Translations under genes and position numbers: made by a program
IMG/VR virus record: IMGVR_UViG_3300020183_005033
Coordinates: 58,437 to 122,436 of that record
DNA length: 64,000 nt
From: a virus
Reading direction: 5' to 3' (one strand)
Notes under the pieces: model-generated
The model's input: only the letters and a program-made list of their open reading frames with translations
What the model was told of the DNA's origin: nothing
Database searches by the model: none
Shown here: piece by piece, positions 33,032 to 51,939 of the stretch
How the letters are laid out: each line of letters begins with the position of its first letter
How positions within the stretch are numbered: the stretch's first letter is position 1

Positions 33032-33712
33032 ATGGCCAAGGTGACCGAACAACAACTAGCTCAGCAGAAACTCTTGAAAGAACTACAAGAGTCATACGAG
33101 CGTGATTATGCTTGGCTAAACGACGAAGAGCGCAACATTGCTGAGAGAGCGCTCGCTGCCCAAAAGACGTTGGTTGTTAGTCCTTCTCAAGAAGCCGCCT
33201 TGTTTGGCGTGTACGCGATGGGCAGAACTTGTGTTCAGATTGCTAGGCAGTCAGGTCATCTTCCTGAGACTATTGTATTGAGTATGCTTCGGTACAACTG
33301 GTGCCTTAGAATGCAGATGGCCAATCAACAAGCCGATGGCAGCGTCTTGGAAGTCTTTGGTAAAGAGGCTATCGACACAATCTTTACTATGACTAAGATT
33401 GCTATTGAGAATGACTTGAAAAAAGTCTTAGCTGGCGAGATGGCGGCGGGCGACTCTGGCTTTGTTCCTAAGAACATAAAAGAGATGAAAGACTTTCTAG
33501 GAATTGTTGGAGAAGTTCATAAGATTGATGCCTTCATGCGTCTCGGAGCCAAGCAGCCTTTGGTCAATGTCAGCAACCAGACGTTGACTCTTAATGGCGG
33601 CCAATCTCAAACGCAGACTCAAGTCACAGATGCTCAAACAGTTGAGCTGCTGGAAACATCAGAAAAACGAATTGAAGCTTTAAAAGCATTGGAAGAAGAT
33701 AGTAAAGAATAG
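33032..33712 (+). CDS. probable terminase small subunit
   Basis: 226 aa. A helix-turn-helix-like stretch at about residues 55-90 (ALFGVYAMGRTCVQIARQSGHLP, then ETIVLSMLRYNW) is followed by a helical core (DTIFTMTKIAIENDLKKVL, MKDFLGIVGEVHKIDAFMRL). The end has a Gln/Thr-rich linker and a charged helix. HTH plus helical oligomer core plus tail is the layout of small terminases, which recognise phage DNA and regulate the large subunit. The large terminase lies 5.5 kb downstream, unusually far. Another HTH regulator is possible. Confidence 0.5.
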   Translation: MAKVTEQQLAQQKLLKELQESYERDYAWLNDEERNIAERALAAQKTLVVSPSQEAALFGVYAMGRTCVQIARQSGHLPETIVLSMLRYNWCLRMQMANQQADGSVLEVFGKEAIDTIFTMTKIAIENDLKKVLAGEMAAGDSGFVPKNIKEMKDFLGIVGEVHKIDAFMRLGAKQPLVNVSNQTLTLNGGQSQTQTQVTDAQTVELLETSEKRIEALKALEEDSKE

Positions 33713-33725
33713 TTAGGAGAATTTT

Positions 33726-33986
33726 ATGTTTAAGTATTTAATTTTGTTTGTTTTGATTGCTTGTCAGTCTACTCCTGCCCCACAGCCACAGCCGTCTCCA
33801 GCAGAAATGGCATGTGCGACCGTTTATGACCCTCATATTTGTCTTATTACTATTGACAGTACGACGTTTGCAGGGCATGGTCAAAACAGGTGCCAAGCTC
33901 TCAGAAAGCTTCGTGCCACACTAACTGAGCGCGGCCACAACCCGCTAATCGCTCAAAGAGCCGAGTGTGGCAGAGTTTTTGAGTAG
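33726..33986 (+). CDS. small lipoprotein, 86 aa
   Basis: Signal peptide MFKYLILFVLIAC with lipobox LIAC; the lipid-modified cysteine would be residue 13. A Pro/Gln linker (APQPQPSP) spans to a small domain with four more cysteines, possibly two disulfides, and a basic helix (CQALRKLRATLTERGH). It should sit in the host envelope. The outer spanin of a lysis system and superinfection exclusion are both possible; nothing decides. Three more lipoproteins lie within 4 kb. AGGAG precedes the ATG. Confidence 0.7.
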   Translation: MFKYLILFVLIACQSTPAPQPQPSPAEMACATVYDPHICLITIDSTTFAGHGQNRCQALRKLRATLTERGHNPLIAQRAECGRVFE

Positions 33987-33999
33987 TCAGGAGATTCTT

Positions 34000-34854
34000 A
34001 TGAACAACGAAACTCAAGAAGAACAAAAACAAGAATGCTTTAGCAAAAGAACTGGCTACAAAATGGCCGACAGGCAAGTTGGCTATCGAGGCAAAAAGTT
34101 TGAAAAGAAATGCTTTCAGAGGCAACTAAGAGAAAAATACGAATCCAATGAAGTTATACCCCTAGGGGACATAGAGATAAAAGAAATCCCATTTAAAGAG
34201 GCTCAAGATTTTATCTTGAAGTATGAGTGGCTTGGCACGATGGGTACGACAAAATTTTCAATAGGAATTTTTTGCAAAAATATACTATGTGGCGTTGCAT
34301 GTTTTGGCCTTACGGCGGGAACAGCTTCTCTATCAGAGCCATTTGGAGAAGAGTATAAAAACAAAGGAATTGTTTTGGTTAGGGGTGCGTGCGCAAGTAA
34401 TGCTCATCAGCACTGCGGAAGCTATCTAATTGGCAAATGCAAAAAGATATTAGAAGAAAAAGGATATCTTTTTTGTATAGCGTATTCAGACCCAGAGGCT
34501 GGAGAAATAGGCACGATATATCAGGCAACTAATTGGAATTTTTACGGTTTCACAAGCAAAGTAAACTACCTTGTCAGACCCGACGGAAAAAGAGTAGACC
34601 CAAAAATTATTCATAAGTATTCAAAAAAACACAAAATATCATACTCAGAGCAAAAAGAACTCTTTTTAAAAGAGGGTTATTACTTTGAAAAAGGTAATAA
34701 AAAAATGAAATACCTTATGTATTTTGGTAACAAAAGAGAAGTTAAACAAATGCTTAAGCATAAAAAAGTCAAATTTTATCAATACTTAAAAAGAGAGCAT
34801 TTTGAAACCTTAGATTTAATATACGAAACTAGCCTCGTTGAAAAAAACACCTAA
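34000..34854 (+). CDS. Mom-like DNA modification protein (GNAT fold)
   Basis: 284 aa from ATG 34000 (CAGGAG upstream). The core resembles phage Mu Mom and its relatives: YEWLGTMGTTKFSIGIFCKN, the R-x-A segment VLVRGACASNAHQHCGSYL, and IAYSDPEAGEIGTIYQATNW, in which family members carry (T/S)YADxxxGHxGxIYxATNW. Mu Mom turns adenine into N6-(methylcarbamoyl)adenine and shields phage DNA from restriction. Here the His of GHxG is replaced (AGEIG), which may matter for chemistry. The C-terminal 100 residues are Lys-rich and could hold DNA. Another GNAT acyltransferase with a different substrate is the main alternative. Confidence 0.65.
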   Translation: MNNETQEEQKQECFSKRTGYKMADRQVGYRGKKFEKKCFQRQLREKYESNEVIPLGDIEIKEIPFKEAQDFILKYEWLGTMGTTKFSIGIFCKNILCGVACFGLTAGTASLSEPFGEEYKNKGIVLVRGACASNAHQHCGSYLIGKCKKILEEKGYLFCIAYSDPEAGEIGTIYQATNWNFYGFTSKVNYLVRPDGKRVDPKIIHKYSKKHKISYSEQKELFLKEGYYFEKGNKKMKYLMYFGNKREVKQMLKHKKVKFYQYLKREHFETLDLIYETSLVEKNT

Positions 34855-34878
34855 AGGTTTTTGTTGACCCTCCGATAA
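34852..34878 (+). promoter_or_regulatory. sigma-28 (FliA)-type promoter, near consensus
   Basis: TAAAGGTT (34852-34859), 11 bp, TCCGATAA (34871-34878), each 7 of 8 matches to the FliA consensus. It begins at the stop codon of the Mom-like gene and drives the gene at 34911. A TTGAC inside the spacer is badly placed for sigma-70. Confidence 0.75.
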
Positions 34879-34910
34879 GACTTATGTAAGTCAACTACGG
34901 GAGGTGCTGC

Positions 34911-35132
34911 ATGTACACAGTTCTTATTGAGTCTGATGTTGCTCCAATGACCATGCCTAACTGGACAATTGACCAATCCTTTGAGGCTGAGTTTGACACA
35001 CTAGGCGAAGCGGAGTCCTACGTGCGCTCATTGGAGCGTTGGTCCGCAGCAGATGCTCATGATGAGCTATGGGCTTGGCACGGTCCACAATTTAGAATCT
35101 TTTCAGAAGAGGCAGGAGACTTTTGTGATTAA
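34911..35132 (+). CDS. hypothetical protein under sigma-28-type promoter, 73 aa
   Basis: Acidic, Trp-rich small protein (WTIDQSF, RWSAADAHDELWAWHGPQFRIF). The middle DTLGEAESYVRSLERW looks like a helix found in small phage proteins that modify strands of the YTVLIE type. GGGAGGTG precedes the ATG, close to the -10 box. Function unknown. A stop at 35132 and 13 bp gap lead to the lipoprotein at 35146, probably on the same transcript. Confidence 0.7.
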   Translation: MYTVLIESDVAPMTMPNWTIDQSFEAEFDTLGEAESYVRSLERWSAADAHDELWAWHGPQFRIFSEEAGDFCD

Positions 35133-35145
35133 AAGGGGATTGATT

Positions 35146-35508
35146 ATGTTTAAGTATTTGAGTTTATTTGTGTTTTTGGTTGGTTGTGGCGCTCCGCAAA
35201 CTCCAGACGAAGTCAAAGCAGACAACTTCTTGCAAGAGTTTGTGGGCGACTGTAAAAAAGTCCATGGAGACAGGTGCGATGTTCCCATGACAGTTCACAG
35301 CCTTAGCGAGTCTGCCGACGAGCAGACTTGTTGGACAGAAGACGGTAATCCTATTAGGTCTGTGGTGCTTCATAGGGAGGCGGTGACCCGAGGCAACAGG
35401 GCGGCTGTCTACCAAGAGTTGTTTTATTGCAGCCTGAATTTAAGCACGCTTCAGAGTGACCTGTTGAGTTTAGAAGAGTTTGCCAAGGCTATTGGTCTAA
35501 GTAAATAA
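35146..35508 (+). CDS. lipoprotein, inactive-looking paralogue of the metallopeptidase at 37360
   Basis: 120 aa from ATG 35146 (AAAGGGGA upstream). Signal MFKYLSLFVFLVGC, lipid cysteine 14. It aligns with the lipoprotein at 37360: EFVGDCKKVHGDRC against EFAGYCDKFGTSTKC, then a TCW/KCY turn, and AVYQELFYC (87-95) against LIAHELAHC. The zinc-ligand histidines of HELAH are Gln and Tyr here, and the IMN turn is gone. So it should fold similarly but not cut. It may bind the same target as a regulator, immunity factor or decoy. This relation is read by eye and needs an alignment. Confidence 0.7.
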   Translation: MFKYLSLFVFLVGCGAPQTPDEVKADNFLQEFVGDCKKVHGDRCDVPMTVHSLSESADEQTCWTEDGNPIRSVVLHREAVTRGNRAAVYQELFYCSLNLSTLQSDLLSLEEFAKAIGLSK

Positions 35509-35509
35509 T

Positions 35510-35560
35510 CTATAATAAGGATTTGGTTTATTATAGTCTACGCTCGTAGCCTATAATAAG
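35510..35560. promoter_or_regulatory. cluster of CTATAATAA repeats and a nested hairpin
   Basis: CTATAATAAG occurs at 35510-35519 and 35551-35560, and its inverse TTTATTATAG at 35527-35536. Between them lies CTACG-CT-CGTAG (35538-35549). Each arm contains TATAAT, but no -35 box is at the right distance. It looks like an operator array, or a stem-loop that ends the lipoprotein transcript without a T-tract. Confidence 0.5.
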
Positions 35561-35605
35561 CTCATGGACAAAGTTTTACAAAAATGAAGTTTAGATGACG
35601 TGCAG

Positions 35606-35734
35606 ATGAAATCTATTGACCATTTTAGTGTTGGTTGGTCAATAGAAGTCATTAGAATGGCCAATAGGCGGTCAATAGAAAATGATTGGCCAGTTGAGCA
35701 GGTGTTGTATGCTTGTTTGAGGTGGGACTTGTGA
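35606..35734 (+). CDS. doubtful 42-aa reading frame
   Basis: Part of the 430-bp stretch 35509-35938, which has no clear intact gene. From ATG 35606 it reads MKSIDHFSVGWSIEV and ends at 35734. There is no good ribosome site, and the DNA carries the direct repeats GGTCAATAGAA (35636-35646, and a GGTCAATAGAAA copy near 35680). It might be the remains of the N-terminal part of the antitoxin-like gene at 35751, in another frame. Confidence 0.2.
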   Translation: MKSIDHFSVGWSIEVIRMANRRSIENDWPVEQVLYACLRWDL

Positions 35735-35750
35735 GTTACCGAGAAATACT

Positions 35751-35894
35751 TTGCTTCATGACTCGGAAGAACAGGCCATCCAGTTTCTTGATACACCGAC
35801 TCATGTTTTGTTTGACAAGACCCCTAATGAGCATATAAAAGATGGTTACGGCCAGACGGTCATCGAGTGGCTGAATGAGTTGGTCGGACGTTAA
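35751..35894 (+). pseudogene. MbcA/ParS/Xre antitoxin C-terminal domain (DUF2384-like), short or decayed
   Basis: Frame open from 35721 to TAA 35892-35894; the first possible start is TTG 35751. The product contains DSEEQAIQFLDTPTHVLFDK, then TPNEHIKDGYG and VIEWLNELVGR. This fits the toxin-binding domain of MbcA/ParS antitoxins (A..WL.TPN..L...TP.E....  G...V...L). The usual N-terminal HTH is not in frame; a stop lies at 35718. Either this is a stand-alone toxin-binding domain or a frame-shifted remnant. No RES or other toxin gene is next to it, so it could block a host toxin. Confidence 0.4.
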
Positions 35895-35938
35895 TAGCAT
35901 TCTAAAGAATATTAATAACATTCCATGGAGAACAAAAA

Positions 35939-36151
35939 ATGACAGAATCTCAATGGCTTGACGCTCAGAAGGCTTACGACAGAGTTAGGGCATTATTAGT
36001 TCAAGATGGCCAAACAATGGAACAGGCTCAAAAGACTCTTGAGACTCTTGTACTGTTTGTGATGGGAAGTAAACTCAATAAAGAAGAAAGCAACGTCCAT
36101 TTGGCCAAGTTTTTAGAGGCTATGTTGAAGGGCGATAAGCCACAGTGTTAA
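35939..36151 (+). CDS. hypothetical helical protein, 70 aa
   Basis: All-helical, soluble small protein (AQKAYDRVRALLVQDG, MEQAQKTLETLVLFVMG, NVHLAKFLEAMLKG). GGAGAA precedes the ATG after the 430-bp stretch. The helix pattern would suit a dimer. It has no HTH signature that I can identify. Role unknown. The lipoprotein at 36194 follows after 42 bp of AT-rich sequence. Confidence 0.6.
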   Translation: MTESQWLDAQKAYDRVRALLVQDGQTMEQAQKTLETLVLFVMGSKLNKEESNVHLAKFLEAMLKGDKPQC

Positions 36152-36193
36152 ATAGTTTGAAATGTTTCTATTTTTTTCTAACTAGGTATTTTT

Positions 36194-36526
36194 ATGAAAA
36201 ACTTATTTTTATGTGTGCTATTGGTTGGTTGCGCTTCATCTCCGCAGGTTCCAAATTCTGCTCCGCAGCCAACACCCACCCCCACTCAAGCACCTAAGCG
36301 TCAGCCAAAATATAAGATAGGCGACTGCCTCATGATTGTTGACTTGCCAAACGGAGAGACTAAGTCTCGCCATAGAGTCAGAGTTGAGAAAGTCGGCGTT
36401 GACCGTTATTACTACAGATGGCTTCTTGACGATGGGCGCTGGGATACAGAACTATCTAGTAATGTAGGCAAATTTGAAGTTTTAGAAAAAATTTCAAAAA
36501 AAGTGTTTGACTGCCCTAAAGGTTAA
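36194..36526 (+). CDS. lipoprotein with SH3-like domain, 110 aa
   Basis: Signal MKNLFLCVLLVGC with lipobox LVGC; lipid cysteine 13. A Pro/Thr/Gln linker (about 18-38) follows, then a small beta domain (YKIGDCLMIVDLPNG, HRVRVEKVGVDRYYYRWLLDDG) with the look of an SH3-like barrel or Tudor-like fold. It ends with a Cys that could pair with the one in GDC. Envelope location is clear, function is not. The gene's end overlaps the sigma-28-type promoter at 36517. A weak ribosome site (TAGGTA) precedes the ATG. Confidence 0.68.
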   Translation: MKNLFLCVLLVGCASSPQVPNSAPQPTPTPTQAPKRQPKYKIGDCLMIVDLPNGETKSRHRVRVEKVGVDRYYYRWLLDDGRWDTELSSNVGKFEVLEKISKKVFDCPKG

Positions 36527-36543
36527 CGCTAGACAGCCGATAA
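36517..36543 (+). promoter_or_regulatory. sigma-28 (FliA)-type promoter, best copy
   Basis: TAAAGGTT (36517-36524), 11 bp, GCCGATAA (36536-36543). The -10 box is a perfect match to the FliA consensus and the -35 box has 7 of 8. It overlaps the last codons of the lipoprotein gene at 36194. ATG 36564 follows with GGAGGTG. Confidence 0.78.
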
Positions 36544-36563
36544 GTATTGTAATGGAGGTGATT

Positions 36564-36761
36564 ATGAAGAACCTAGCAAGCGAAATCAAAAAGGCAGTTA
36601 ACGCTAAATGTGCGCCCAATGGTAGGGCAAATCTTATTGTCCACCTTAAAGACGGACAGCGCATCAAAATAGAAAAAGTAAATGCGGGTGACTTTTACAC
36701 ACCCATGGTCATTGCTGAGTCTTTTCCAAATGTGGCCAAGGCAGAATTAGAAGTTTATTAA
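36564..36761 (+). CDS. hypothetical protein under sigma-28-type promoter, 65 aa
   Basis: Start chosen at ATG 36564 because GGAGGTG lies 6 bp upstream and the promoter at 36517 rules out earlier in-frame codons. The product (MKNLASEIKKAVNAKC, then ANLIVHLKDGQRIKIEKV) has a helix followed by two strands, a layout seen in small RNA- or DNA-binding proteins. It carries one Cys. No named family. A 29-aa membrane peptide gene follows 9 bp later. Confidence 0.7.
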   Translation: MKNLASEIKKAVNAKCAPNGRANLIVHLKDGQRIKIEKVNAGDFYTPMVIAESFPNVAKAELEVY

Positions 36762-36770
36762 GGAGGTTTT

Positions 36771-36860
36771 GTGACTGAGTATCAATTGTTTCTTATGTTT
36801 GCTACTTTCATGGCAGTTCTTTTTGGGACAGGACTGCTTGTTAATATCCTTCAGGACTAA
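36771..36860 (+). CDS. membrane mini-protein, 29 aa
   Basis: GTG start with a strong AAGGAGG ribosome site 5 bp upstream. The product has one hydrophobic helix (FLMFATFMAVLFGTGLLVNIL) with short polar ends. The tight spacing on both sides (9 and 11 bp) and the ribosome site support a real gene. It probably sits in the inner membrane under the sigma-28-type promoter at 36517. Confidence 0.5.
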   Translation: MTEYQLFLMFATFMAVLFGTGLLVNILQD

Positions 36861-36871
36861 GGAGTCTTGCC

Positions 36872-37159
36872 ATGGCTAACCACAAAATCATGCTCCAAGC
36901 CTCTAGCTACCTGACTCAAATGGGCATCCCATTCCAGTCAGTCAAGATGTTTGGCAAGCTGTTGGTTATCCATACCAACGACCACCATGCTGCAAAAATC
37001 ATTCAAAGTATTCTTAGCGGCTCTGGCGTCAATAAAACAGGAATTGAAGAGCCAGACAGAATGAATGACGACTACGTTGTAACTGGTCTTATTGATGATG
37101 CCATCAATGAAGCTCTCGAAGAGTTTGACGATATAGACTATGGGGATGAAGAGCAATGA
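36872..37159 (+). CDS. hypothetical acidic protein, 95 aa
   Basis: Soluble protein with an alpha/beta start (LTQMGIPFQSVKMFGKLLVIHTND), a helix, and a very acidic C-terminus (EALEEFDDIDYGDEEQ) such as is found in proteins that mimic DNA. AAGGAG precedes the ATG. The stop overlaps the next gene by 4 bp. Not recognised; DNA mimicry (for example against restriction) is only a thought based on charge. Confidence 0.62.
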   Translation: MANHKIMLQASSYLTQMGIPFQSVKMFGKLLVIHTNDHHAAKIIQSILSGSGVNKTGIEEPDRMNDDYVVTGLIDDAINEALEEFDDIDYGDEEQ

Positions 37160-37347
37160 AGTTAATTTATCTCATTATCCTATTTCAAATCTGCGGCAAC
37201 ACTATGGCTATTTTTGAGGATGGTGAGCCTACTTTAGCTTGTCATCTAGTTAAGCAACAATGTGTGAGTCTGTCTATTGCGCAACTTATGATGCTGCGCC
37301 AGACTTCATCTTGTACAAAACTTAAAGAGTTTAAAGTGGTTGAGTAG
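37156..37347 (+). CDS. small exported or membrane-anchored protein, 63 aa
   Basis: A hydrophobic N-terminus (MKLIYLIILFQICGNTMA) fits a signal peptide or anchor; the ICG site is a poor lipobox, so cleavage after TMA is more likely. The mature part is 45 residues with three cysteines. It overlaps the previous gene by 4 bp and precedes the metallopeptidase lipoprotein by 12 bp, so it may be a partner of that envelope protein. Confidence 0.58.
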   Translation: MKLIYLIILFQICGNTMAIFEDGEPTLACHLVKQQCVSLSIAQLMMLRQTSSCTKLKEFKVVE

Positions 37348-37359
37348 TTAGGGGGACTT

Positions 37360-37962
37360 ATGCGTTTTGTCTTTATGGCTATATTGTTGGTTGGATGTGG
37401 GACAGGTCTTGGAACTACAGAAGTAGAAAAGATTGTGGAAGTCCCCCAACCCTTTTATATTGACACCCATAAAGTAGACGCCAAACTTCTTCCCCACGTT
37501 ATGGAATTTGCCGGATATTGTGACAAGTTTGGAACATCTACCAAGTGCAAGGAAAACTTTAATAAAATCAAGTCAATACGGATTGTAGAGTCTTTTCCTG
37601 AAAAGTTTGTTATTGGCAAGTGTTATGTATCTTCCTCAAAGCGCTGGGTCGAGGTTCTTGACTGGCAGGACTCAGACTCTTTTTCAACTAAAGCTTTGAT
37701 TGCGCACGAGCTGGCTCACTGCGCCCTTGGCGACCCCTTTTCTCACTACGACGAGGAAGATGACATCATGAATAGCTACTTAATCTCAGACCAGACCATC
37801 TTTCGTAGCTGGCCACAGCTCATTAAAGCTATGTTTTTACGCGCTGGCGGCTCTTTACCGTTGACACAAGAAGAAAATGCTTCTACAGTTACTCAGTCAA
37901 TCATTACTGAGACAGGAGAGGTGGCTTGTGAAACCAGAGAAAATTCAATACCAAGACATTGA
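37360..37962 (+). CDS. lipoprotein zinc metallopeptidase
   Basis: 200 aa. Signal MRFVFMAILLVGC gives lipid cysteine 13. The catalytic motif is HELAH (116-120), followed by H129 and an IMN turn (136-138). That is the order of metzincin-like enzymes (HExxH, third ligand, Met-turn), here as HELAHCALGDPFSH. Four cysteines (54, 63, 88, 121) may form disulfides. The enzyme should sit in the host envelope and cut a periplasmic or outer-membrane protein, perhaps to block superinfection or help lysis. A paralogue without zinc ligands lies at 35146. GGGGG precedes the ATG. Its end overlaps the next gene by 35 bp. Confidence 0.8.
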   Translation: MRFVFMAILLVGCGTGLGTTEVEKIVEVPQPFYIDTHKVDAKLLPHVMEFAGYCDKFGTSTKCKENFNKIKSIRIVESFPEKFVIGKCYVSSSKRWVEVLDWQDSDSFSTKALIAHELAHCALGDPFSHYDEEDDIMNSYLISDQTIFRSWPQLIKAMFLRAGGSLPLTQEENASTVTQSIITETGEVACETRENSIPRH

Positions 37963-38299
37963 AGACAAGTTTCCGCAGCTCTTAAGGTGTGGTTTAGAAG
38001 TCAACGAGGGTTGGTTATCATTAATTTGGGACATGTGTGAGCATCTTTTAGCCTCAAGAGAGGCTATTGGTGTTCCCATTTCAGAAGAAAATCCTCTGCA
38101 CTTTACACAAATTAAAGAAAAGTTTGGAACTCTTCGGGCATATGCAACTACGTCTACAGAAGAAGACGAGAGAATTATTTCTATGTTTGAAGATATGAGT
38201 CAGTTTGTTTGTTCTGTTTGTTCTAAGCCAGGACAAATTAAAGGAAAGCATTGGCTTTATGTTGCTTGCGATGAGCATACGAGTCCTTCTGATAAGTAA
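37928..38299 (+). CDS. phage protein of unknown function with zinc-ribbon-like end
   Basis: 123 aa from GTG 37928, which has GGAGAGG upstream; the frame is open further upstream inside the peptidase gene. It carries the common phage motif FTQIKEKFGTLRAYA, then a helix (IISMFEDMSQF) and VCSVCSKPGQ plus a late VACDEH, a likely Cys/His metal site. Proteins with IKEKFGGLR and CxxCGKPG are widespread in phages and lack a known role. It lies 8 bp before the fructose-bisphosphatase gene. Confidence 0.72.
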   Translation: MKPEKIQYQDIEDKFPQLLRCGLEVNEGWLSLIWDMCEHLLASREAIGVPISEENPLHFTQIKEKFGTLRAYATTSTEEDERIISMFEDMSQFVCSVCSKPGQIKGKHWLYVACDEHTSPSDK

Positions 38300-38307
38300 G
38301 GAATTTT

Positions 38308-39207
38308 ATGGATTATTTTAAATTTTTAAAGGTTACTGAGGCTGCGGCTATTGCTAGTTCTAAGTGGATTGGAAAAATGGATAAGAATGCAGCAGATGGG
38401 GCTGCTGTAGACGCCATGAGAGCCGAATTTGATTCTATTAACTTTAGAGGGATTGTGGTCATAGGTGAAGGTGAACTCGACGAAGCTCCTATGTTGTACG
38501 TTGGAGAAAAACTTGGCACAGGCCGTGGCGACAAGTACGATATTGCTGTAGACCCACTTGAAGGAACTGAGTTAGTCGCCAAAGGCAAGCCTAATGCTCT
38601 GTCTGTTATGGCAGTAGGAGAATGGTACAGCCTTATGAGCGCACCTGACTGCTATATGGACAAGATTGTCGTAGGCTCTAAAGCCAAAAACGCCTCTATA
38701 TCATTATTCAAAACAACCGAAGAAAATCTCAAAGAAGTCTCAGCTCATCTTAAAAAGCCAATTGAAGAAATGACAGTCTGTGTCCTCGATAGGCCGAGAC
38801 ATGCTGATTTGATTAAAGAAATTACCCAACTAGGAGCTAAAATATCACTTATCAGCGACGGAGACGTGCTGGCAGCTATTGGTGTCTGCATGGGCAAGTA
38901 CGACATGTTGATGGGGATTGGCGGCGCTCCGGAGGGTGTTGTCTCGGCTGCCGCTATTAAGAGTCTTGGGGGGAAGATACTAGGTCGATTAGTATTAGAT
39001 ACTCCAGAACTTAAAGAACGAGCAGCTTTTATGCACAAAACAGACGAAAAAGAGTACGATACTGACAGGATGGTTAGCGGAAAAGCGGCTTTTATTGCAA
39101 CAGGAGTGACTGACTCATTCCTACTTGATGGAGTGACTCACAACCAAACTCATTCAGTTATTTTGACTCCAAAGGAAAAAAGATTTATAAAGACGACTTA
39201 TGGCTAA
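38308..39207 (+). CDS. glpX: class II fructose-1,6-bisphosphatase (GlpX family)
   Basis: 299 aa. Signature motifs of GlpX are intact: DKNAADGAAV (25-34, metal-binding Asp30), VIGEGELDEAPM (51-62), AVDPLEGT (80-87), SDGDV (183-187) and GIGGAPEGVVSAA (203-215, Glu209). The enzyme removes the 1-phosphate of fructose-1,6-bisphosphate (often also sedoheptulose-1,7-bisphosphate), feeding gluconeogenesis and the pentose phosphate route. It is about 37 residues shorter than E. coli GlpX, mainly between GRLVL and the FIATGVT motif. It overlaps the large terminase by 8 bp, so it is a true member of the late operon. It probably shifts host carbon to ribose for nucleotides. Activity is inferred. Confidence 0.9.
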   Translation: MDYFKFLKVTEAAAIASSKWIGKMDKNAADGAAVDAMRAEFDSINFRGIVVIGEGELDEAPMLYVGEKLGTGRGDKYDIAVDPLEGTELVAKGKPNALSVMAVGEWYSLMSAPDCYMDKIVVGSKAKNASISLFKTTEENLKEVSAHLKKPIEEMTVCVLDRPRHADLIKEITQLGAKISLISDGDVLAAIGVCMGKYDMLMGIGGAPEGVVSAAAIKSLGGKILGRLVLDTPELKERAAFMHKTDEKEYDTDRMVSGKAAFIATGVTDSFLLDGVTHNQTHSVILTPKEKRFIKTTYG

Positions 39208-41182
39208 GAAAAAAGAACCTGAAATTACAGAAGAGCAAAGGGTGCGCATTGAAATGCGTAAACGTCTTTTGTTTACTGTTTGTGAAACAAAAGAAGAGCT
39301 TCAACAATTCATTAAGACTTTCCTTAAGTTAGACTTGCCAGACTGTACAGTAGACGAAATGTCTACTTCTAATCCCATGGAAGCTGTCTGGCAAATTTAC
39401 CTCACAATGAAGACCAACAAGGGTGCCCACCGTGTAGTCGTGGCAGCCTCTCGTAACTCGATGAAGACAGTTATGTCGGCGGTGATTCATTGGTTGGCAA
39501 TGATTCATTTTAGAAGGTCATGTCTACAGATTGCCGCCATTAAAGACCAATCTTACAAAGCAATCAAGTACCTTAAAAAGTTCCTCCGTATTCCAGAACT
39601 TCAAGAACATTTTGAAACAAACCGAGCGGGAGAGCTACGACTCTTTAATTTGCCTCCAAATTCGTATACAGCAAAAGACGATGCCGACGTTTTTGTAACA
39701 GCAGCTACACTAGAGGGTGCTAACTCATCCCGCGCTTCTATTATTATTCGAGACGAATGTGACCTAACCCCCAGAGAGATTCTCTCAGAAGTCGCCATGG
39801 TTGCCGACCCCACGCAAGATGAGCACGGCTTTGAGCCAATCACCATCTCGCTGTCTTCTCGCAAGACTTCTCAAGGACCTTTGCAGGAACTGATGGAAGA
39901 GGCCGAAAAGGGCGACGACCCAGATATTAGACTAGACAAGTGGTCGGCTGTGGATTTTATGAGGAAATGTTTGCCAGAGACTCACGGAGAAAAGAGACTC
40001 AAGGCATATCTTCATACAGAAAACCTCAAAGTCAGATGGGATGAAGAGCTATTCCAAGAAGAACCAGAAGCAATCAAAGTTAAGTACAAAGAAATATTAG
40101 CTTATGAAGGATGTATGACATGCCCTGCGTTTATTGCCTGTCAGGCTCGCGCCCCCAAACAGACAGGCAAATCTAAGACATTAAGAACTATTGCCTTCAT
40201 TGGTAACTTCATTAAAGAGACAAAAGAAGCCAACAAAATTATTGCTCAGATTCTCAACTGGCGTCCAGAAACAGGCGGCTTAGTTTTCCCTACGTTCAAC
40301 AGAATGAATCACGTCCGTAGCCCCGCTGAGACTTGGTTTTGGATGACTGGTCAACAGTGGAAGAATAATAGAAAATGTACTAAACAGGATATTTATGCTT
40401 GGGCAGTGACTAATAAATGGGAAGTAAGTTTTGGTATTGACTGGGGCGTTCGCGACCCCGCAGTGGTCGTTGTATATCTGTACTCTCAATCTCAGACTAG
40501 AGCCATTTTGCTTCATGCGCGGTCAGCTACTGGCTACCCCAACTCTCAGTGGGCACAAACAGTTAGAGAAAAAGAATGCCTAATGTTTCCTCCAGACATT
40601 ATTTGCCCTGATACAGCCGATGCTGGTTCTGCTCATTACTTTCAGCCTTTTGGGTTTGCTGTTAAGCCCAAGAAACCGACTCATATTGAGACTGGAGTAG
40701 TTCAGATTCAGTCTTTGCTTTGGAATGTAGAAAGACAAGAGTCAGACATGATTCTTTGTAAAGAAGAAAACGACAGCGGGATAGAGTATGCTATTGAATC
40801 TTTTACCAACTGGATGCACAAGAAAGACCCCCGTGGAGAGTTTGATACAAGTCGATTTGAAGACGATGATTGGACTCACACGAATGACGCAAGTCGGTAT
40901 GCACTAGACAAATACCGCACCGCAGTCGAAATTAAGATTAGTAGCGCCTCTAAACACATCGGCACTGCCGCCCCCATGAGCCGCGAACAGCAATACCAAA
41001 AAGAGCTAGAGTCTGCCATGTATGATACCTATAAAGATATGGGTGTACCCATCATGCCGTCGCAACTAGCTGATATGACTATGGATGCTTACAGAAAAGC
41101 AGGCATGGGTCACCTCATCGAAGGTGATTCCAAAGGCCCTGCCCCCGAACCAAAGAAAAAATTAATTAAATTTAGTATTTAA
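39200..41182 (+). CDS. terminase large subunit
   Basis: 660 aa. The ATPase half has a deviant Walker A, ASRNSMKT (83-90; usual form x-SRx-x-GKT/S), and a Walker B IIIRDEC (181-187, D185, E186). Between them the DNA-translocase core is recognisable (LQIAAIKDQSYKAIKYL). The nuclease half has FGIDWGVRDPAVVV (first Asp), CPDTADAGS and WTHTNDASRYAL (last Asp), the RNase H-like site. It cuts and pumps DNA into the prohead through the portal. The Met in place of Gly in Walker A is odd, but Lys and Thr are kept. The C-terminus is Lys/Pro-rich. Confidence 0.87.
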   Translation: MAKKKEPEITEEQRVRIEMRKRLLFTVCETKEELQQFIKTFLKLDLPDCTVDEMSTSNPMEAVWQIYLTMKTNKGAHRVVVAASRNSMKTVMSAVIHWLAMIHFRRSCLQIAAIKDQSYKAIKYLKKFLRIPELQEHFETNRAGELRLFNLPPNSYTAKDDADVFVTAATLEGANSSRASIIIRDECDLTPREILSEVAMVADPTQDEHGFEPITISLSSRKTSQGPLQELMEEAEKGDDPDIRLDKWSAVDFMRKCLPETHGEKRLKAYLHTENLKVRWDEELFQEEPEAIKVKYKEILAYEGCMTCPAFIACQARAPKQTGKSKTLRTIAFIGNFIKETKEANKIIAQILNWRPETGGLVFPTFNRMNHVRSPAETWFWMTGQQWKNNRKCTKQDIYAWAVTNKWEVSFGIDWGVRDPAVVVVYLYSQSQTRAILLHARSATGYPNSQWAQTVREKECLMFPPDIICPDTADAGSAHYFQPFGFAVKPKKPTHIETGVVQIQSLLWNVERQESDMILCKEENDSGIEYAIESFTNWMHKKDPRGEFDTSRFEDDDWTHTNDASRYALDKYRTAVEIKISSASKHIGTAAPMSREQQYQKELESAMYDTYKDMGVPIMPSQLADMTMDAYRKAGMGHLIEGDSKGPAPEPKKKLIKFSI

Positions 41183-47082: not shown

Positions 47083-47385
47083 ATGTCTGATTTACTTAAT
47101 AATCTCGACTCAGTCGAACAAGACGCGGAAAAACAACAAGAGTTCTTCAAGATGCTTGACGAGATGGTGTCTTCTTATGGCCACCTTCTCATGGAAGTTC
47201 AATCTATGGGTCAGAAGCTCCAAGAGTTAGCTGGCTTGGCTCATTGGTCAAAAGAGCATATCGAATATCTCCTAGCTAAAGACGAAGAGTATATGGCTGC
47301 TGTCAAGGCGTACATGGAATCGAAAGGAAGCGACAATGGCAGCGAAGCCAACGAGGTTTCAGCAGACTTGTCCGAGAAAGCTTGA
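47083..47385 (+). CDS. hypothetical coiled-coil protein, 100 aa
   Basis: Start at ATG 47083 with AAAGGAGAGG upstream; earlier in-frame codons precede this site. Long charged helix (LDSVEQDAEKQQEFFKMLDEM, MEVQSMGQKLQELAGLA), typical of coiled coils, and an acidic Ser/Ala-rich tail. It overlaps the next gene by 50 bp in another frame. A scaffold-type or adaptor role would suit it, but this is not shown by the sequence. Confidence 0.6.
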   Translation: MSDLLNNLDSVEQDAEKQQEFFKMLDEMVSSYGHLLMEVQSMGQKLQELAGLAHWSKEHIEYLLAKDEEYMAAVKAYMESKGSDNGSEANEVSADLSEKA

Positions 47386-47983
47386 TAAGCTTCCGGCAAC
47401 TGCTTGTCCTCTCGCAGTAGAGTCTATAGAGGCCATTAAGGCTGGGCAGCCTGAGAAAGTCACCTGCCCATTCTTTGTTAACGACCTTCATTCAAACTAC
47501 TGTTTTTGGAAATTCATGGATGAAGACGGAGAGGCGATTGACTCTGCCCGCCGCCTCGCTCAACTTAACGTCATGCAAGAAGCAGAAGTTAAGGAGATTG
47601 TCGGTAGAGCCGGCGAGATACTCTCCAATGCTGTTGATGCAGAAAACCTACAACTCTTTAAAGAAGCTGTCTACGAAGCCATGCCCGAAGTCACTGCTGA
47701 TATCTACACTCAAGAGTCTTGGGTGGAAGAAGTTATTGGGGCTGACGGCATTCCACAAGAACCTGGGAAACCGGGGCGTAAGAAAAAAGCCAAGATTCAG
47801 GCTCCAAAAGGGTTTTCAGGTGGACACGCTCTACACAAGTCTGGGAAAAGAACTCAGTTGACAGGACTCAGTGCCAAGTGGCATGAACATGTTAAGGAGT
47901 TCCAGAAGGGTGATACCCCTATTCGCATGAGTTCTAATACTATGGCGAAGAAAAAGAAAGACGAAAAAGATGAAGAATCATGA
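47336..47983 (+). CDS. putative HTH regulator with CPxxVNxxxxNYCFW motif
   Basis: 215 aa. After two N-terminal Cys-Pro pairs, residues about 44-60 read CPFFVNDLHSNYCFWKF, a motif I know from phage proteins in which it precedes a sigma-region-4-like helix-turn-helix. Here LAQLNVMQEAEVKEIVGRAGEI follows and could be that HTH. The second half is a basic linker (KPGRKKKAKIQAPKGF) and a Lys-rich tail. If the reading is right, it is a DNA-binding transcription factor and a possible partner of the unusual promoters of this phage. The call rests on motif memory and needs profile search. Confidence 0.5.
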   Translation: MAAKPTRFQQTCPRKLDKLPATACPLAVESIEAIKAGQPEKVTCPFFVNDLHSNYCFWKFMDEDGEAIDSARRLAQLNVMQEAEVKEIVGRAGEILSNAVDAENLQLFKEAVYEAMPEVTADIYTQESWVEEVIGADGIPQEPGKPGRKKKAKIQAPKGFSGGHALHKSGKRTQLTGLSAKWHEHVKEFQKGDTPIRMSSNTMAKKKKDEKDEES

Positions 47984-48176
47984 AGCAATCCAAAAGCTAA
48001 AATCCGAGATACCAGATGTCCGTGAAGACGGCATTTGGGTTTTGTACGTTAATGCCATTCATGCTTATAAGACTTTGGAACACCACGCCAAAAACGAGCC
48101 TGACTGGAAACTAAGAGACTTATTGAACAAAATGTTAAATGATTTTAGGATTTTACATGACAAAGAAAACAGTTAA
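47970..48176 (+). CDS. hypothetical helical protein, 68 aa
   Basis: Begins in the end of the previous gene (14-bp overlap). Short helices with many His, Asn and Lys (NHEAIQKLKSEIPDV, IHAYKTLEHHAKNEP, DLLNKMLNDFRIL). It also overlaps the MuF-like gene by 20 bp, so all three are translated together. No known domain. Confidence 0.55.
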   Translation: MKNHEAIQKLKSEIPDVREDGIWVLYVNAIHAYKTLEHHAKNEPDWKLRDLLNKMLNDFRILHDKENS

Positions 48177-49302
48177 AAATACAAAACCAGTCTTAAAAGT
48201 CGTTCAACACCTCAAGTTTATTAAACAACTTGAGAAGAACGCCAACATGTCTTACGAAATTGTCGTAGACAGGATGATTGACGATATTATTAAACACTTA
48301 AAAGCAGAAAAACTAGCCAAGTCCGAAGACCCCCTAGACCCAGTCAACCTTCCGTCTAACTGGCAAAGACAAGTTCCAAGAATCACAGTCAATTTCAATA
48401 AGACTATCGGACCTATTATTGAAAAGTACATGTTGGTTTTGAAGTATGCCCTGTTGGGCAAGGCTGCTGGTCAAGATGCTGAAGATGCTGTCGAAGAGCT
48501 GGGGCTTAAGACTTATTTGCCTAAAGGCATTTTGTTTCAAGGCTTCTTCGATGCAGTAGACACTCACGATGACTACTTCTCCAAAGCCCTCAAGATTCCC
48601 AAGCCACGAATTAAAGCAAAGAAAGATCCTTTCTTAGAATACACGTTCAAATTTATTCAAGAGAAGACAGCTCGGTACGTAGACAAGAGTCTAGTCGAGA
48701 TGAAAGTAAAGGCTCTGACGGCTCTTGAGAACTTAGTGACAGACCACAACCATGACAATATGTCTAACGTACATAGAGTCGCCCATAACTTGGCTGAAGG
48801 TCTTAAAGAGACGCAGAAGAAGAAAGAAGCCGTTAAAGATGCAGTTAGAGCAGTAGCTGAGCAGAGACTTAGTCTTACTAAAGCCAAACAGACTCTTAAA
48901 GACACATTCAAAGACTACAGCACAAATTGGGACTTGGTTGTAAAGACTGAAGTTGGTATGGCATCTGCTGTAGCAACAAGTCAGACAATCCTCCATCACG
49001 CTGGCTCGTCCAACAGAGATGTCATTGTGACTATTGTCTCGATTGAAGACGATAGAGTCTCTAAAGAGTGCAAAGATTGGAGCCGCAATGAAGATGGCTC
49101 ACTGAAATACTTTAGGCTGACTGCTCTAAAACCGCCGGGGTATAACTTAGGTAAGAAAAAAGCTCAGTGGGAAAATTGTCAACCATTAAGGCACTTTAGG
49201 TGTAGATGCACTCTTGTGTGTGTCCCCAAGGGCTACAAGGTAGATAACTTTGGCTCGTTGGTAAAATTGAGTGAAGGTGAAGAAATCAAGATAGAGAATT
49301 GA
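48157..49302 (+). CDS. MuF / SPP1 gp7-like minor head protein
   Basis: 381 aa from ATG 48157. Its C-terminal third has the MuF-domain pattern: VKTEVGMASAVATSQTILHH, the D-x-RVSKECKDWS segment, PPGY, and finally CQPLRHFRCRCTLVCVP, which is the H-x-RCRC signature. The N-terminal two thirds are helical. MuF-like proteins bind the portal and enter the head in a few copies; some are ejected with the DNA. The position, some 3 kb after the portal, fits. No toxin domain is fused. ATG 48157 has a weak AGGA site. Confidence 0.75.
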   Translation: MTKKTVKNTKPVLKVVQHLKFIKQLEKNANMSYEIVVDRMIDDIIKHLKAEKLAKSEDPLDPVNLPSNWQRQVPRITVNFNKTIGPIIEKYMLVLKYALLGKAAGQDAEDAVEELGLKTYLPKGILFQGFFDAVDTHDDYFSKALKIPKPRIKAKKDPFLEYTFKFIQEKTARYVDKSLVEMKVKALTALENLVTDHNHDNMSNVHRVAHNLAEGLKETQKKKEAVKDAVRAVAEQRLSLTKAKQTLKDTFKDYSTNWDLVVKTEVGMASAVATSQTILHHAGSSNRDVIVTIVSIEDDRVSKECKDWSRNEDGSLKYFRLTALKPPGYNLGKKKAQWENCQPLRHFRCRCTLVCVPKGYKVDNFGSLVKLSEGEEIKIEN

Positions 49303-49303
49303 G

Positions 49304-49870
49304 ATGATTGTTACAGTAATAACTCCATCAATAGGCAGGCCGACTCTCAAAGAAGCCTTGGAGTCACTACAAAGCCAATCTAATCCTAAATGGTTATCGC
49401 TCGTTGGGTTTGACGGCGTTAATCCTCCTCAACCTGTCCAAGACAACAGAATCACCTATGTCTATCTGACTAAGGCGGGCGGCGGCAAAAACCATGGCGG
49501 CGGAGTTAGAAACAAACTTATTCCGTTAGTCATGACCGATTGGCTGTGCTTCTTGGATGACGATGATAGCTTTCGGCCACACTATGTGGATGCTTTGGCA
49601 GCAGAATTGACTACCAACCCAGACGCTGACTGCGTTATCTTTAGGATGAGTTACGACGATAAAGACTCTAAAGTGCTGCCACCAGCTCACTTAAAGAATA
49701 TTCAGGCTTGTCTTGTTGGGATTTCTTGTGCAGCCAGGAAAGAGTTTTTAGTGCAAAACGGAATTGAATTTAAGAACGGACCCCTAGAAGATTATCACTT
49801 CTTAAGGCAGATTGAAGACAAGCGGGGCAAAATCGTCTTCTCTAAAGAGATTACTTACAACGTCAGGTAG
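49304..49870 (+). CDS. glycosyltransferase family 2 (GT-A fold)
   Basis: 188 aa. IVTVITPSIGRPTLKEALES is the N-terminal nucleotide-binding strand and helix of GT2 enzymes. WLCFLDDDDSF (about 81-91) holds the metal-binding DxD, and LEDYHFLRQI gives the ED acceptor-side acid. The substrate would be a nucleotide sugar. Acceptor unknown: virion protein, modified base or host glycan. The gene starts 1 bp after the MuF-like stop, so it belongs to the head operon, and it ends in an 8-bp convergent overlap with the minus-strand operon. Confidence 0.82.
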   Translation: MIVTVITPSIGRPTLKEALESLQSQSNPKWLSLVGFDGVNPPQPVQDNRITYVYLTKAGGGKNHGGGVRNKLIPLVMTDWLCFLDDDDSFRPHYVDALAAELTTNPDADCVIFRMSYDDKDSKVLPPAHLKNIQACLVGISCAARKEFLVQNGIEFKNGPLEDYHFLRQIEDKRGKIVFSKEITYNVR

Positions 49871-50141
49871 CAATCACTTCTTTAAAAACCACTACTCGAA
49901 TAGACATCCAAGTCTCTAGTCCATCATAATTAAAGCTACGGCGATGCTTAATTTGGTCTGGAGCGCGTCTATAGACTCTTCTTTGCGGCGTTTGTTCTGG
50001 CACAGAAACAGACTTGATTGGCGCGATTAGCTCTTCGGTTTTCCAGTCACAACTAAACGTGTTTTGAAACTCAATGGGGTTAAAGGAGCGGCTTAGCACT
50101 TCGTCCGCACTAACTAATGTAATTTCAATAAAATCTGTCAT
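49863..50141 (-). CDS. hypothetical protein, last gene of the helicase operon, 92 aa
   Basis: Strand-rich N-terminus (FIEITLVSADEVLS), a stretch of Arg/Tyr (QRRVYRRAPDQIKHRRSFNY) that could contact nucleic acid, and a final strand (WMSIRVVVFKEVI). It overlaps its upstream neighbour by 4 bp, which supports a real gene in a polycistronic unit. Not recognised. Confidence 0.6.
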   Translation of the reverse strand: MTDFIEITLVSADEVLSRSFNPIEFQNTFSCDWKTEELIAPIKSVSVPEQTPQRRVYRRAPDQIKHRRSFNYDGLETWMSIRVVVFKEVIAT

Positions 50142-50401
50142 GCGTCATCTTCCCTGCTTTTAATGACTAGAATCTTTTCTTGTTTTAAATAAGTTGTAAA
50201 AACTTTGGCTAAATGTTTATTCACAGCGTCTTTCCAAACTTGACTAAGAGGCTCTAAAGTTTTTGGATTACCCTGCTGGGCATTAAAGGCAACGGCTTGG
50301 GCAAATTTAACAAGATCCTGAGAATGGATAACAAGATGATAATTTCCTGTTTCTTCGTTTTCTGCAAGTGTATTAATTTCTTCTTTTGAGTAAATCTTCA
50401 T
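50138..50401 (-). CDS. hypothetical protein, 87 aa
   Basis: Short alpha/beta protein starting MKIYSKEEINTLAENEETG, with a strand YHLVIHSQDLV, helices, and a final strand KILVIKSRED. It overlaps both neighbours by 4 bp (ATGA type), showing tight translational coupling in the minus-strand operon. No domain is recognised. Confidence 0.62.
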   Translation of the reverse strand: MKIYSKEEINTLAENEETGNYHLVIHSQDLVKFAQAVAFNAQQGNPKTLEPLSQVWKDAVNKHLAKVFTTYLKQEKILVIKSREDDA

Positions 50402-50721
50402 TTAGTGCCCTTTTTTTGATCGACTTTTGTTTTAATCATGTTTTTCACTTCGATCCACTTTTCTTTTGAAATACGCATTTCTCTTTCAGATAGACCTACC
50501 ATATCCCACTTGCCATCTATACTAGACAGAGACACTCTTCCAAACTTAAGGACTTCGTCCCCTTCTGTCAATACAAAAATAGCCATCTTTGTCAAAGAGA
50601 CAATTAAGCCAACTTGTGTCTCATCTTCTTCATTTGCCATCTCGATGGTATCGCCTAGCTCAGCCCCTATAAGCTGTAGCTCGTCGTGCGCCCATGGCGT
50701 TGCTGATGTGTCTAAGTTCAT
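50398..50721 (-). CDS. hypothetical protein, 107 aa
   Basis: The middle part forms strands (TIEMANEEDETQVGLIV, MAIFVLTEGDEVLKFGRVSL), then a charged helix (EREMRISKEKWIEVKNMIKTK) and a Lys-rich end. An SH3-like barrel before a helix is a possible reading. A GAGAGGAA site precedes the ATG. It overlaps the next gene by 4 bp. Not recognised. Confidence 0.62.
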   Translation of the reverse strand: MNLDTSATPWAHDELQLIGAELGDTIEMANEEDETQVGLIVSLTKMAIFVLTEGDEVLKFGRVSLSSIDGKWDMVGLSEREMRISKEKWIEVKNMIKTKVDQKKGTK

Positions 50722-50730
50722 AAATTCCTC

Positions 50731-51006
50731 TCACGGAGCTGGTTCAAATCTCCAAAGTGGTTTATTGCTTGAGCCGTTGTAAATTAAAATTTTTTTGTAG
50801 TACCAACCATCGGGGCGTTCCACCCTAAGATTGTCAATATATTCTGCTGAATAGCCATCTAGTTCGTCTGCTTTTCTCAAAGCCTCAATCACTTCATCTC
50901 TTGATGGCATAGAAGACATCATTGCGTCTGCCCTGTAGTCATCCTGACCATCTACCCAATAAGCAGGAATCATTAGCTTATAGCGATGTGGCTGTGAAAA
51001 GCTCAT
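50731..51006 (-). CDS. hypothetical protein, 91 aa
   Basis: Start set at ATG 51006, with GTGAGG 7 bp upstream; a TTG at 51021 is also in frame. It contains YKLMIPAYWVDGQDDY, the helix DEVIEALRKADEL, and WYYKKILIYNG. Aromatic-rich and small. It lies 8 bp downstream of the GT9-like gene in the same operon. No known family. Confidence 0.6.
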   Translation of the reverse strand: MSFSQPHRYKLMIPAYWVDGQDDYRADAMMSSMPSRDEVIEALRKADELDGYSAEYIDNLRVERPDGWYYKKILIYNGSSNKPLWRFEPAP

Positions 51007-51014
51007 AACTGACC

Positions 51015-51938
51015 TCACCAAATCTTTAATTGGTTTAAAGCATCTATAAACTTTTTACTAGTCATTTTTGTAACACACTCTGCAAGCTCCATTTTGCGAG
51101 GACAGTTTGCAAAATTCCAGTAATTTAGTGACCAGTCTGACTCACAAAAACCGCAGGCAATATTGGGAGTAATTGAAATGGTGGGAACTCGTCCTCTGTA
51201 TGGAATCCGGAGCTCAGGTTTAATAGTCGTAAATCCGCAAACAACGGGAGTTTGGGTTGTCCAAGCAATGTGCATAGGGCCGCCGTCCATTCCCACGATG
51301 GCTTTAGACTGATTCATAATAGTTGCAAGCTCCCTAAAAGACGTATCGTCTCTTAAGTCTACTCCAAAGCCCGGATACTCAAAATCACTTACAGCGAGAC
51401 TGCTTTTCCAAATAGAAATAGCTCCTCTTTTGCCTACGTATACAGGAGTTAGCCCTTTTGAATAAACATATTCGGCAATTTTAGTAATTTCGTCTGATAG
51501 AATTGTACGCTGCTTGTCTCTGTAAGTAGTAATAATAATTACAGATTTACTAAAATCTACGCCGTAACGGCTTACGTCCGTTGGTAAAAGCGGAACGTAC
51601 TGGGCGTCGATGTCATCTAGTACGCGCCCCAGTAAACCAATAGAGGCGTATTGGGTCAGTTTCATGCGAGACGGAGTTAGCTTACAAACATGGTTACCAA
51701 CTCCGAGCATATTTAAATGCCTAATTGAATATCCCTTAGGGTACTGAGCCGTAACTTCGGTAAATTTACTTTCAGGAATAAAATGAAAAAAATCTTTAAA
51801 ATCCGGATAAACTCCTACAAGGTAATCGTCCGTTCTTTTGTGAAAATTTTCGGTAGCGTATTTTAAAGAAGGAGCGGCAGCTATTAGATCACCCACTGCA
51901 GCAGAGTTCAAACAATATACGACTTTATCTGCAATCAT
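51015..51938 (-). CDS. glycosyltransferase family 9-like (heptosyltransferase fold)
   Basis: 307 aa from ATG 51938 (AAGGAC upstream; a TTG start at 51959 would overlap the helicase gene). The start VYCLNSAAVGDLIAAAPSLKYA mirrors the GT9 opening (GDxxxxxPxL). SVIIITTYRDKQR begins the second Rossmann domain. AIVGMDGGPMHIAWTTQTPVVCGF is the GT9 nucleotide-sugar motif (D-GP-HxA). A cluster of four cysteines near the end (CGFCESD, NCPRKM, ECV) suggests a metal site. GT-B enzymes of this family add heptose or other sugars to lipopolysaccharide, so remodelling of host surface or of virion sugar is plausible. Confidence 0.78.
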   Translation of the reverse strand: MIADKVVYCLNSAAVGDLIAAAPSLKYATENFHKRTDDYLVGVYPDFKDFFHFIPESKFTEVTAQYPKGYSIRHLNMLGVGNHVCKLTPSRMKLTQYASIGLLGRVLDDIDAQYVPLLPTDVSRYGVDFSKSVIIITTYRDKQRTILSDEITKIAEYVYSKGLTPVYVGKRGAISIWKSSLAVSDFEYPGFGVDLRDDTSFRELATIMNQSKAIVGMDGGPMHIAWTTQTPVVCGFTTIKPELRIPYRGRVPTISITPNIACGFCESDWSLNYWNFANCPRKMELAECVTKMTSKKFIDALNQLKIW

Positions 51939-51939
51939 C

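Follow-up and report, generated by a model that had tools for sequence, protein, structure and literature searches.

The glpX gene and its neighbourhood

The window analysed here, a stretch of 64,000 nucleotides, comes from an IMG/VR virus record (G000, 122,436 bp), and in it a gene for a class II fructose-1,6-bisphosphatase (FBPase; glpX) runs directly into the gene for the large terminase subunit (TerL). The features around this junction are the following, in coordinates of the window.

33032-33712, + strand: tentative small terminase, 226 aa; L107, a phage without glpX, has a homologue a short way upstream of its TerL gene
33726-38299, + strand: cargo stretch from the probable small terminase to glpX; gene content varies between relatives
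37877-38299, + strand: ORF of 140 aa, separated from glpX by a gap of 8 nt; a counterpart lies upstream of glpX in relatives
38308-39207, + strand: glpX, class II fructose-1,6-bisphosphatase, ATG start, 299 aa
within glpX: catalytic-site residues D30, E54, D58, D82, E85, T87, Y116, R162, R164, D184, D186 and E209
39200-39207, + strand: 8-bp overlap in which glpX ends and TerL begins, ATGGCTAA
39200-41182, + strand: TerL, terminase large subunit, 660 aa; 29% identity to the TerL of phage Mx1, 85-88% conserved in the phage clade
43146-45143, + strand: portal protein (Pfam/PHROG match); 24% identity to the Mx1 portal

The ORF at 39200-41182, which has no match in Pfam or PHROG, is identified as TerL by its sole match in 50,697 phage records, a protein annotated as large terminase in Myxococcus phage Mx1 (29%, E 5e-48). 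Mx1 is the nearest cultured phage by both TerL and portal, and a distant relative only. The probable small terminase (33032-33712) likewise has no family match in Pfam or PHROG. A preliminary description of this DNA had quoted five GlpX motifs and a stretch shared with the large terminase gene; all five motifs are present in the ORF at 38308-39207, and the overlap is indeed exactly 8 bp, the neighbour being recognised as TerL through its similarity to Mx1.

Upstream, glpX forms the downstream end of the cargo stretch that separates the tentative small terminase from TerL, and which holds a Mom-like protein in the window and a DUF2827 protein in the relative L005. The Mom-family protein of the window (33967-34854; PF25680, 1.8e-22) is a possible DNA-modification enzyme. 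Tail sheath and baseplate families are present among the other ORFs of the window, and glpX therefore sits amid phage genes (TerL, portal, tail and baseplate) on a phage contig, away from any host boundary. GT2- and GT9 (heptosyltransferase)-like proteins are encoded downstream of the portal gene (47336-53391), and a DEAD/ResIII-type helicase is also encoded in the window.

Catalytic site and predicted fold

The phage protein matches PF03320 with 370 bits (E 7.9e-111; Pfam cutoff 27 bits) and the glpX equivalog family TIGR00330 with 310 bits (NCBIfam cutoff 259), and it is 45% identical to E. coli GlpX in a structure alignment. Ten catalytic residues are known for the E. coli FBPaseII (D33, E57, D85, E88, T90, Y119, K164, R166, D188 and E213), and the list also covers the M. 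tuberculosis enzyme (PMC5892879). All ten have counterparts in the phage protein (D30, E54, D82, E85, T87, Y116, R162, R164, D186 and E209); specifically, R162 takes the position of E. coli K164 and matches Arg159 of M. tuberculosis (PMC5892879), and T87 takes that of the threonine described as essential in Francisella (T89) and M. tuberculosis (T84) (PMC10289334). These ten residues are invariant in the five phage alleles introduced below and, with one conservative exception, in nine aligned cellular relatives. All five phage alleles also keep two further site residues, D58, which corresponds to E. coli D61, and D184, which corresponds to the Asp that opens the DGD motif.

An AlphaFold model of the phage protein (pLDDT 93.2, pTM 0.91; 48-row alignment) superimposes on E. 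coli GlpX with bound substrate (3d1r) at a TM of 0.94. As the alignment included cellular relatives, the model shows compatibility with GlpX and is no proof of the site. Among the viral structures in BFVD none resembles the phage protein at E <= 0.001. Bacterial GlpX enzymes (E. coli 3d1r, M. tuberculosis 6ayy and Francisella 7js3) share with it the full catalytic site and the predicted fold (TM 0.92-0.94, 43-45% identity), whereas the phage-encoded version is shorter (299 aa against roughly 320-340), carries deletions of five and two residues near the C-terminus and lacks the C-terminal tail. The structural match with the lowest E-value is a cyanobacterial dual FBPase/SBPase, an enzyme type of the same family (Synechocystis 3roj and T. 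elongatus 5a5l, 41-42% identity). The Synechocystis enzyme binds AMP with C-terminal residues (PMC5892879), and these apparently have no counterpart in phage GlpX, as judged from the missing tail and not from a direct alignment. Overall, phage GlpX is very probably a catalytically competent FBPase. The enzyme itself is ordinary, and it is the stable residence in one phage lineage that is rare.

Conservation beside TerL in one phage clade

In scans of 2.9 million viral contigs, with the clade defined by a TerL of at least 85% identity, the clade TerL was found in eight records beyond the window's own. GlpX adjoins TerL in all seven clade records that reach the junction (the window's and six more), so the survey of related phages proposed in the preliminary description does recover the gene pair. 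The seven records represent five lineages. The first comprises the window and two records nearly identical to it, and the other four have GlpX alleles at 82, 80, 77 and 57% identity. The overlap with TerL is 8 bp in L003, L004 and L005, as in the window, and 17 bp in L010. That glpX is fixed beside TerL, and is not there by chance, had been argued from the overlap; conservation across five lineages bears the claim out, but the 8-bp overlap alone would be insufficient as proof. Upstream of TerL, glpX is absent from the more distant phage L107 (TerL 46%) and from Mx1. The other two of the eight further records, L008 and L009, come from different metagenomes and start inside TerL at the identical base (window 39216), which looks like an assembly fork at the glpX/TerL junction; this common break fits a variable junction, without proving one.

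Other relatives differ in TerL itself, which is about 1030-1080 aa long in three of them (L004 10896-14126, L107 9983-13222 and L108 5284-8385). The long versions contain an insert with intein hallmarks (a first residue Cys in two of the three, and the end (H/Q)NC), which in L004 and L107 occupies one and the same site, close to the nuclease domain; the TerL of the window has no such insert. Between TerL and an HNH gene, L004 (14207-20635) and L005 (12940-18840) also have an ORF of about 2000 aa that is absent from the window.

The search for further carriers relied on motifs. Alignment-based scans of the viral contigs chose narrow patterns and gave no extra GlpX carriers, and degenerate DNA motif scans were therefore adopted. 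Strict scans with GIGGAPEGV and EGExDEAPM returned 9 and 11 contigs, respectively, and these two scans of 2.9 million viral contigs yielded no convincing phage GlpX outside the clade; as exact motifs may miss divergent genes, there may be more lineages with a phage GlpX than these scans show. Among the contigs set aside, six (L020, L021, L023, L149, L150 and L153) lack a GlpX-like match, and two were identified by reading the sequence: L151 resembles a bacterial chromosome flank and L152 looks like a chimera that joins an RNA-phage replicase to GlpX. Of the INPHARED matches, two are Salmonella genome records and the rest are short unannotated records, likely of bacterial origin.

Such cases illustrate that a bacterial glpX can be misbinned or joined to phage sequence, since the IMG/VR and INPHARED matches beyond this clade have the look of bacterial flanks or records, or of chimeras. 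For the clade itself, however, the same junction is found in independent contigs from different metagenomes, with synteny on both sides, and the phage alleles form a clade of their own. The base composition of the gene is also that of the phage (GC 0.434 against a phage mean of 0.427; GC3 0.378 against 0.390), which makes a long residence probable. Host-DNA contamination is refuted by the recurrent junction, and we give it practically no weight.

Phage glpX is under purifying selection in all five lineages (dN/dS about 0.09-0.16). Among the four closer ones dN/dS is about 0.09-0.11 (0.086-0.103 for the computed pairs of window, L003 and L005, with L004 similar); against L010, at a distance that saturates synonymous sites, it is 0.13-0.16. 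A tree of 51 proteins groups the five alleles in a single clade (bootstrap 99, SH-aLRT 98) that sits on a long stem and falls outside all of the Bdellovibrionota, Myxococcota, Alphaproteobacteria and Acidobacteria sampled. All of them have the 5-residue deletion and the 2-residue deletion and have lost the C-terminal tail, which supports a single acquisition. As to the donor, AU tests reject neither a grouping of the phages with Bdellovibrionota (p 0.215) nor one with Myxococcota (p 0.149), but they do reject trees that separate L010 from the remaining phages and join it to Bdellovibrionota (p 0.009), and trees that join the remaining four alleles to Parvibaculum (p 4e-5). L010 is 57% identical to the window in GlpX but 87% in TerL, and its nucleotide identity rises from 0.63 to 0.83 at the junction. 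The glpX allele that L010 carries at this site has diverged deeply, which we read as an exchange of glpX alleles within the slot; faster divergence would be the alternative.

The lineage-specific deletions, the missing tail, the long stem and the adjacency to TerL would also suit a protein that has kept the fold while its main substrate became another sugar or polyol phosphate, or whose role is non-metabolic. Against this speak the substrate- and metal-binding residues of the FBP site, all of which are kept in the five alleles, the low dN/dS and the lack of any link between GlpX and packaging, and we consider such a change of function improbable. The shared deletions and the missing tail could nevertheless change the oligomerisation or specificity of phage GlpX.

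Earlier surveys already report viral glpX or fbp, and the gene is thus not a first. Specifically, glpX appears as an auxiliary metabolic gene (AMG) of viruses from contaminated soils, from trench sediment and, in the table of a review, from the gut (PMC12615777, PMC12448302, PMC12713726), and fbp has been described in rumen viruses with the same carbon-to-nucleotide argument (PMC5704599). The surveys that were read name these genes as viral metabolic genes but follow no single lineage that keeps them. What is new here is an uncultured clade of large phages in which glpX is fixed, and under selection, at a hallmark-gene junction.

Possible roles during infection

Viral carbon AMGs also include talC, zwf and gnd in cyanophages. 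Phage glpX resembles the known viral carbon AMGs in being a carbon gene of the host type, carried by a phage and proposed to redirect carbon to precursors; it differs from them in its clade-wide fixation beside TerL, in its monophyletic gene tree and in the lack of transaldolase-type and transketolase genes in the records searched.

We somewhat favour an active FBPase that serves to redirect carbon towards nucleotides, a reading in which we infer the activity, the direction of flux, the nucleotide link and the timing. A bacterial glpX would have been gained once by a large, apparently lytic phage lineage (no integrase was found in four records, possibly incomplete) and kept against TerL as an AMG. 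Its product would be a metal-dependent class II FBPase, possibly also using sedoheptulose-1,7-bisphosphate (SBP), which would remove the 1-phosphate from fructose-1,6-bisphosphate (FBP) to give fructose-6-phosphate (F6P), or from SBP to give sedoheptulose-7-phosphate (S7P), and thus push the FBP/F6P step one way, towards F6P. From there carbon could enter the non-oxidative pentose-phosphate pathway, in which host transketolase and related enzymes would yield ribose-5-phosphate (R5P) as input to a set of nucleotide-making enzymes that the phage itself encodes. The latter comprises the two subunits of ribonucleotide reductase, dUTPase, dCMP deaminase, dNMP kinase and a NUDIX protein. Neither transaldolase nor transketolase was found in the four, possibly incomplete, records, so that the downstream steps would depend on host enzymes.

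The benefit to the phage may lie in control. Loss of the C-terminal tail could free phage GlpX from regulation by the host, and a gluconeogenic enzyme fixed in a clade with its own deletions offers a system in which to test if a phage drives the FBP/F6P step and if it removes host control of that step. In Bdellovibrionota, one possible host phylum, 176 of the 192 sampled genomes have a GlpX of their own, and an extra copy must therefore add something, for example dose or escape from regulation. In a Bdellovibrionota-like host the phage would thus gain dose or deregulation and no new reaction. A search for the phage TerL, run without a positive control, found it in 0 of 291 Bdellovibrionota and 0 of 195 Myxococcota genomes. 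The position beside TerL suggests, as a hypothesis, late transcription of glpX; a promoter scan gave results at chance level.

The route to R5P put forward in the preliminary description is plausible but not unique. Apart from the missing transaldolase and transketolase, the genome encodes a GmhA-like isomerase, which leaves a route to heptose open too:

G000:55083-55721, upstream of the window: GmhA-like SIS protein; PRK13936 phosphoheptose isomerase, 1.6e-66

S7P could enter heptose through this protein, which scores 194 bits against a solved phosphoheptose isomerase and has a counterpart of 82% identity, in the same order, in a 163-kb relative, with a PLP aminotransferase nearby in both. 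Proteins similar to GT9 heptosyltransferases, GT2 and DUF5672 are encoded downstream of TerL. Some GlpX enzymes are SBPases, and GlpX paralogues of B. methanolicus differ in SBPase activity (PMC7092467); the lowest-E fold match, an FBP/SBPase, points the same way. However, an HldE-type nucleotidyltransferase (PF01467) was not found in four records, the GT9 match is weak, glpX and gmhA lie about 41 kb apart, and many phages have gmhA, itself among the well-characterised viral AMGs, without glpX (PMC9238414). The isomerase also falls below the gmhA cutoffs (TIGR00441, 207.2 against 209.45 bits; PRK13936, 223.8 against 276). It is labelled GmhA-like only, the cutoffs being narrowly missed although every one of the closest solved structures is a phosphoheptose isomerase. 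Entry of S7P into heptose by this protein seems rather unlikely, and unlikely too is the fuller scheme in which the trimmed GlpX would act as a deregulated FBPase/SBPase whose product the isomerase would take to heptose, instead of or alongside nucleotides.

In G299 the GmhA-like isomerase lies at 157022-157399, near a PLP aminotransferase, and the arrangement is syntenic in two lineages. A divergent GroEL/Cpn60-like chaperonin is likewise phage-encoded (G000:27069-28682, - strand).
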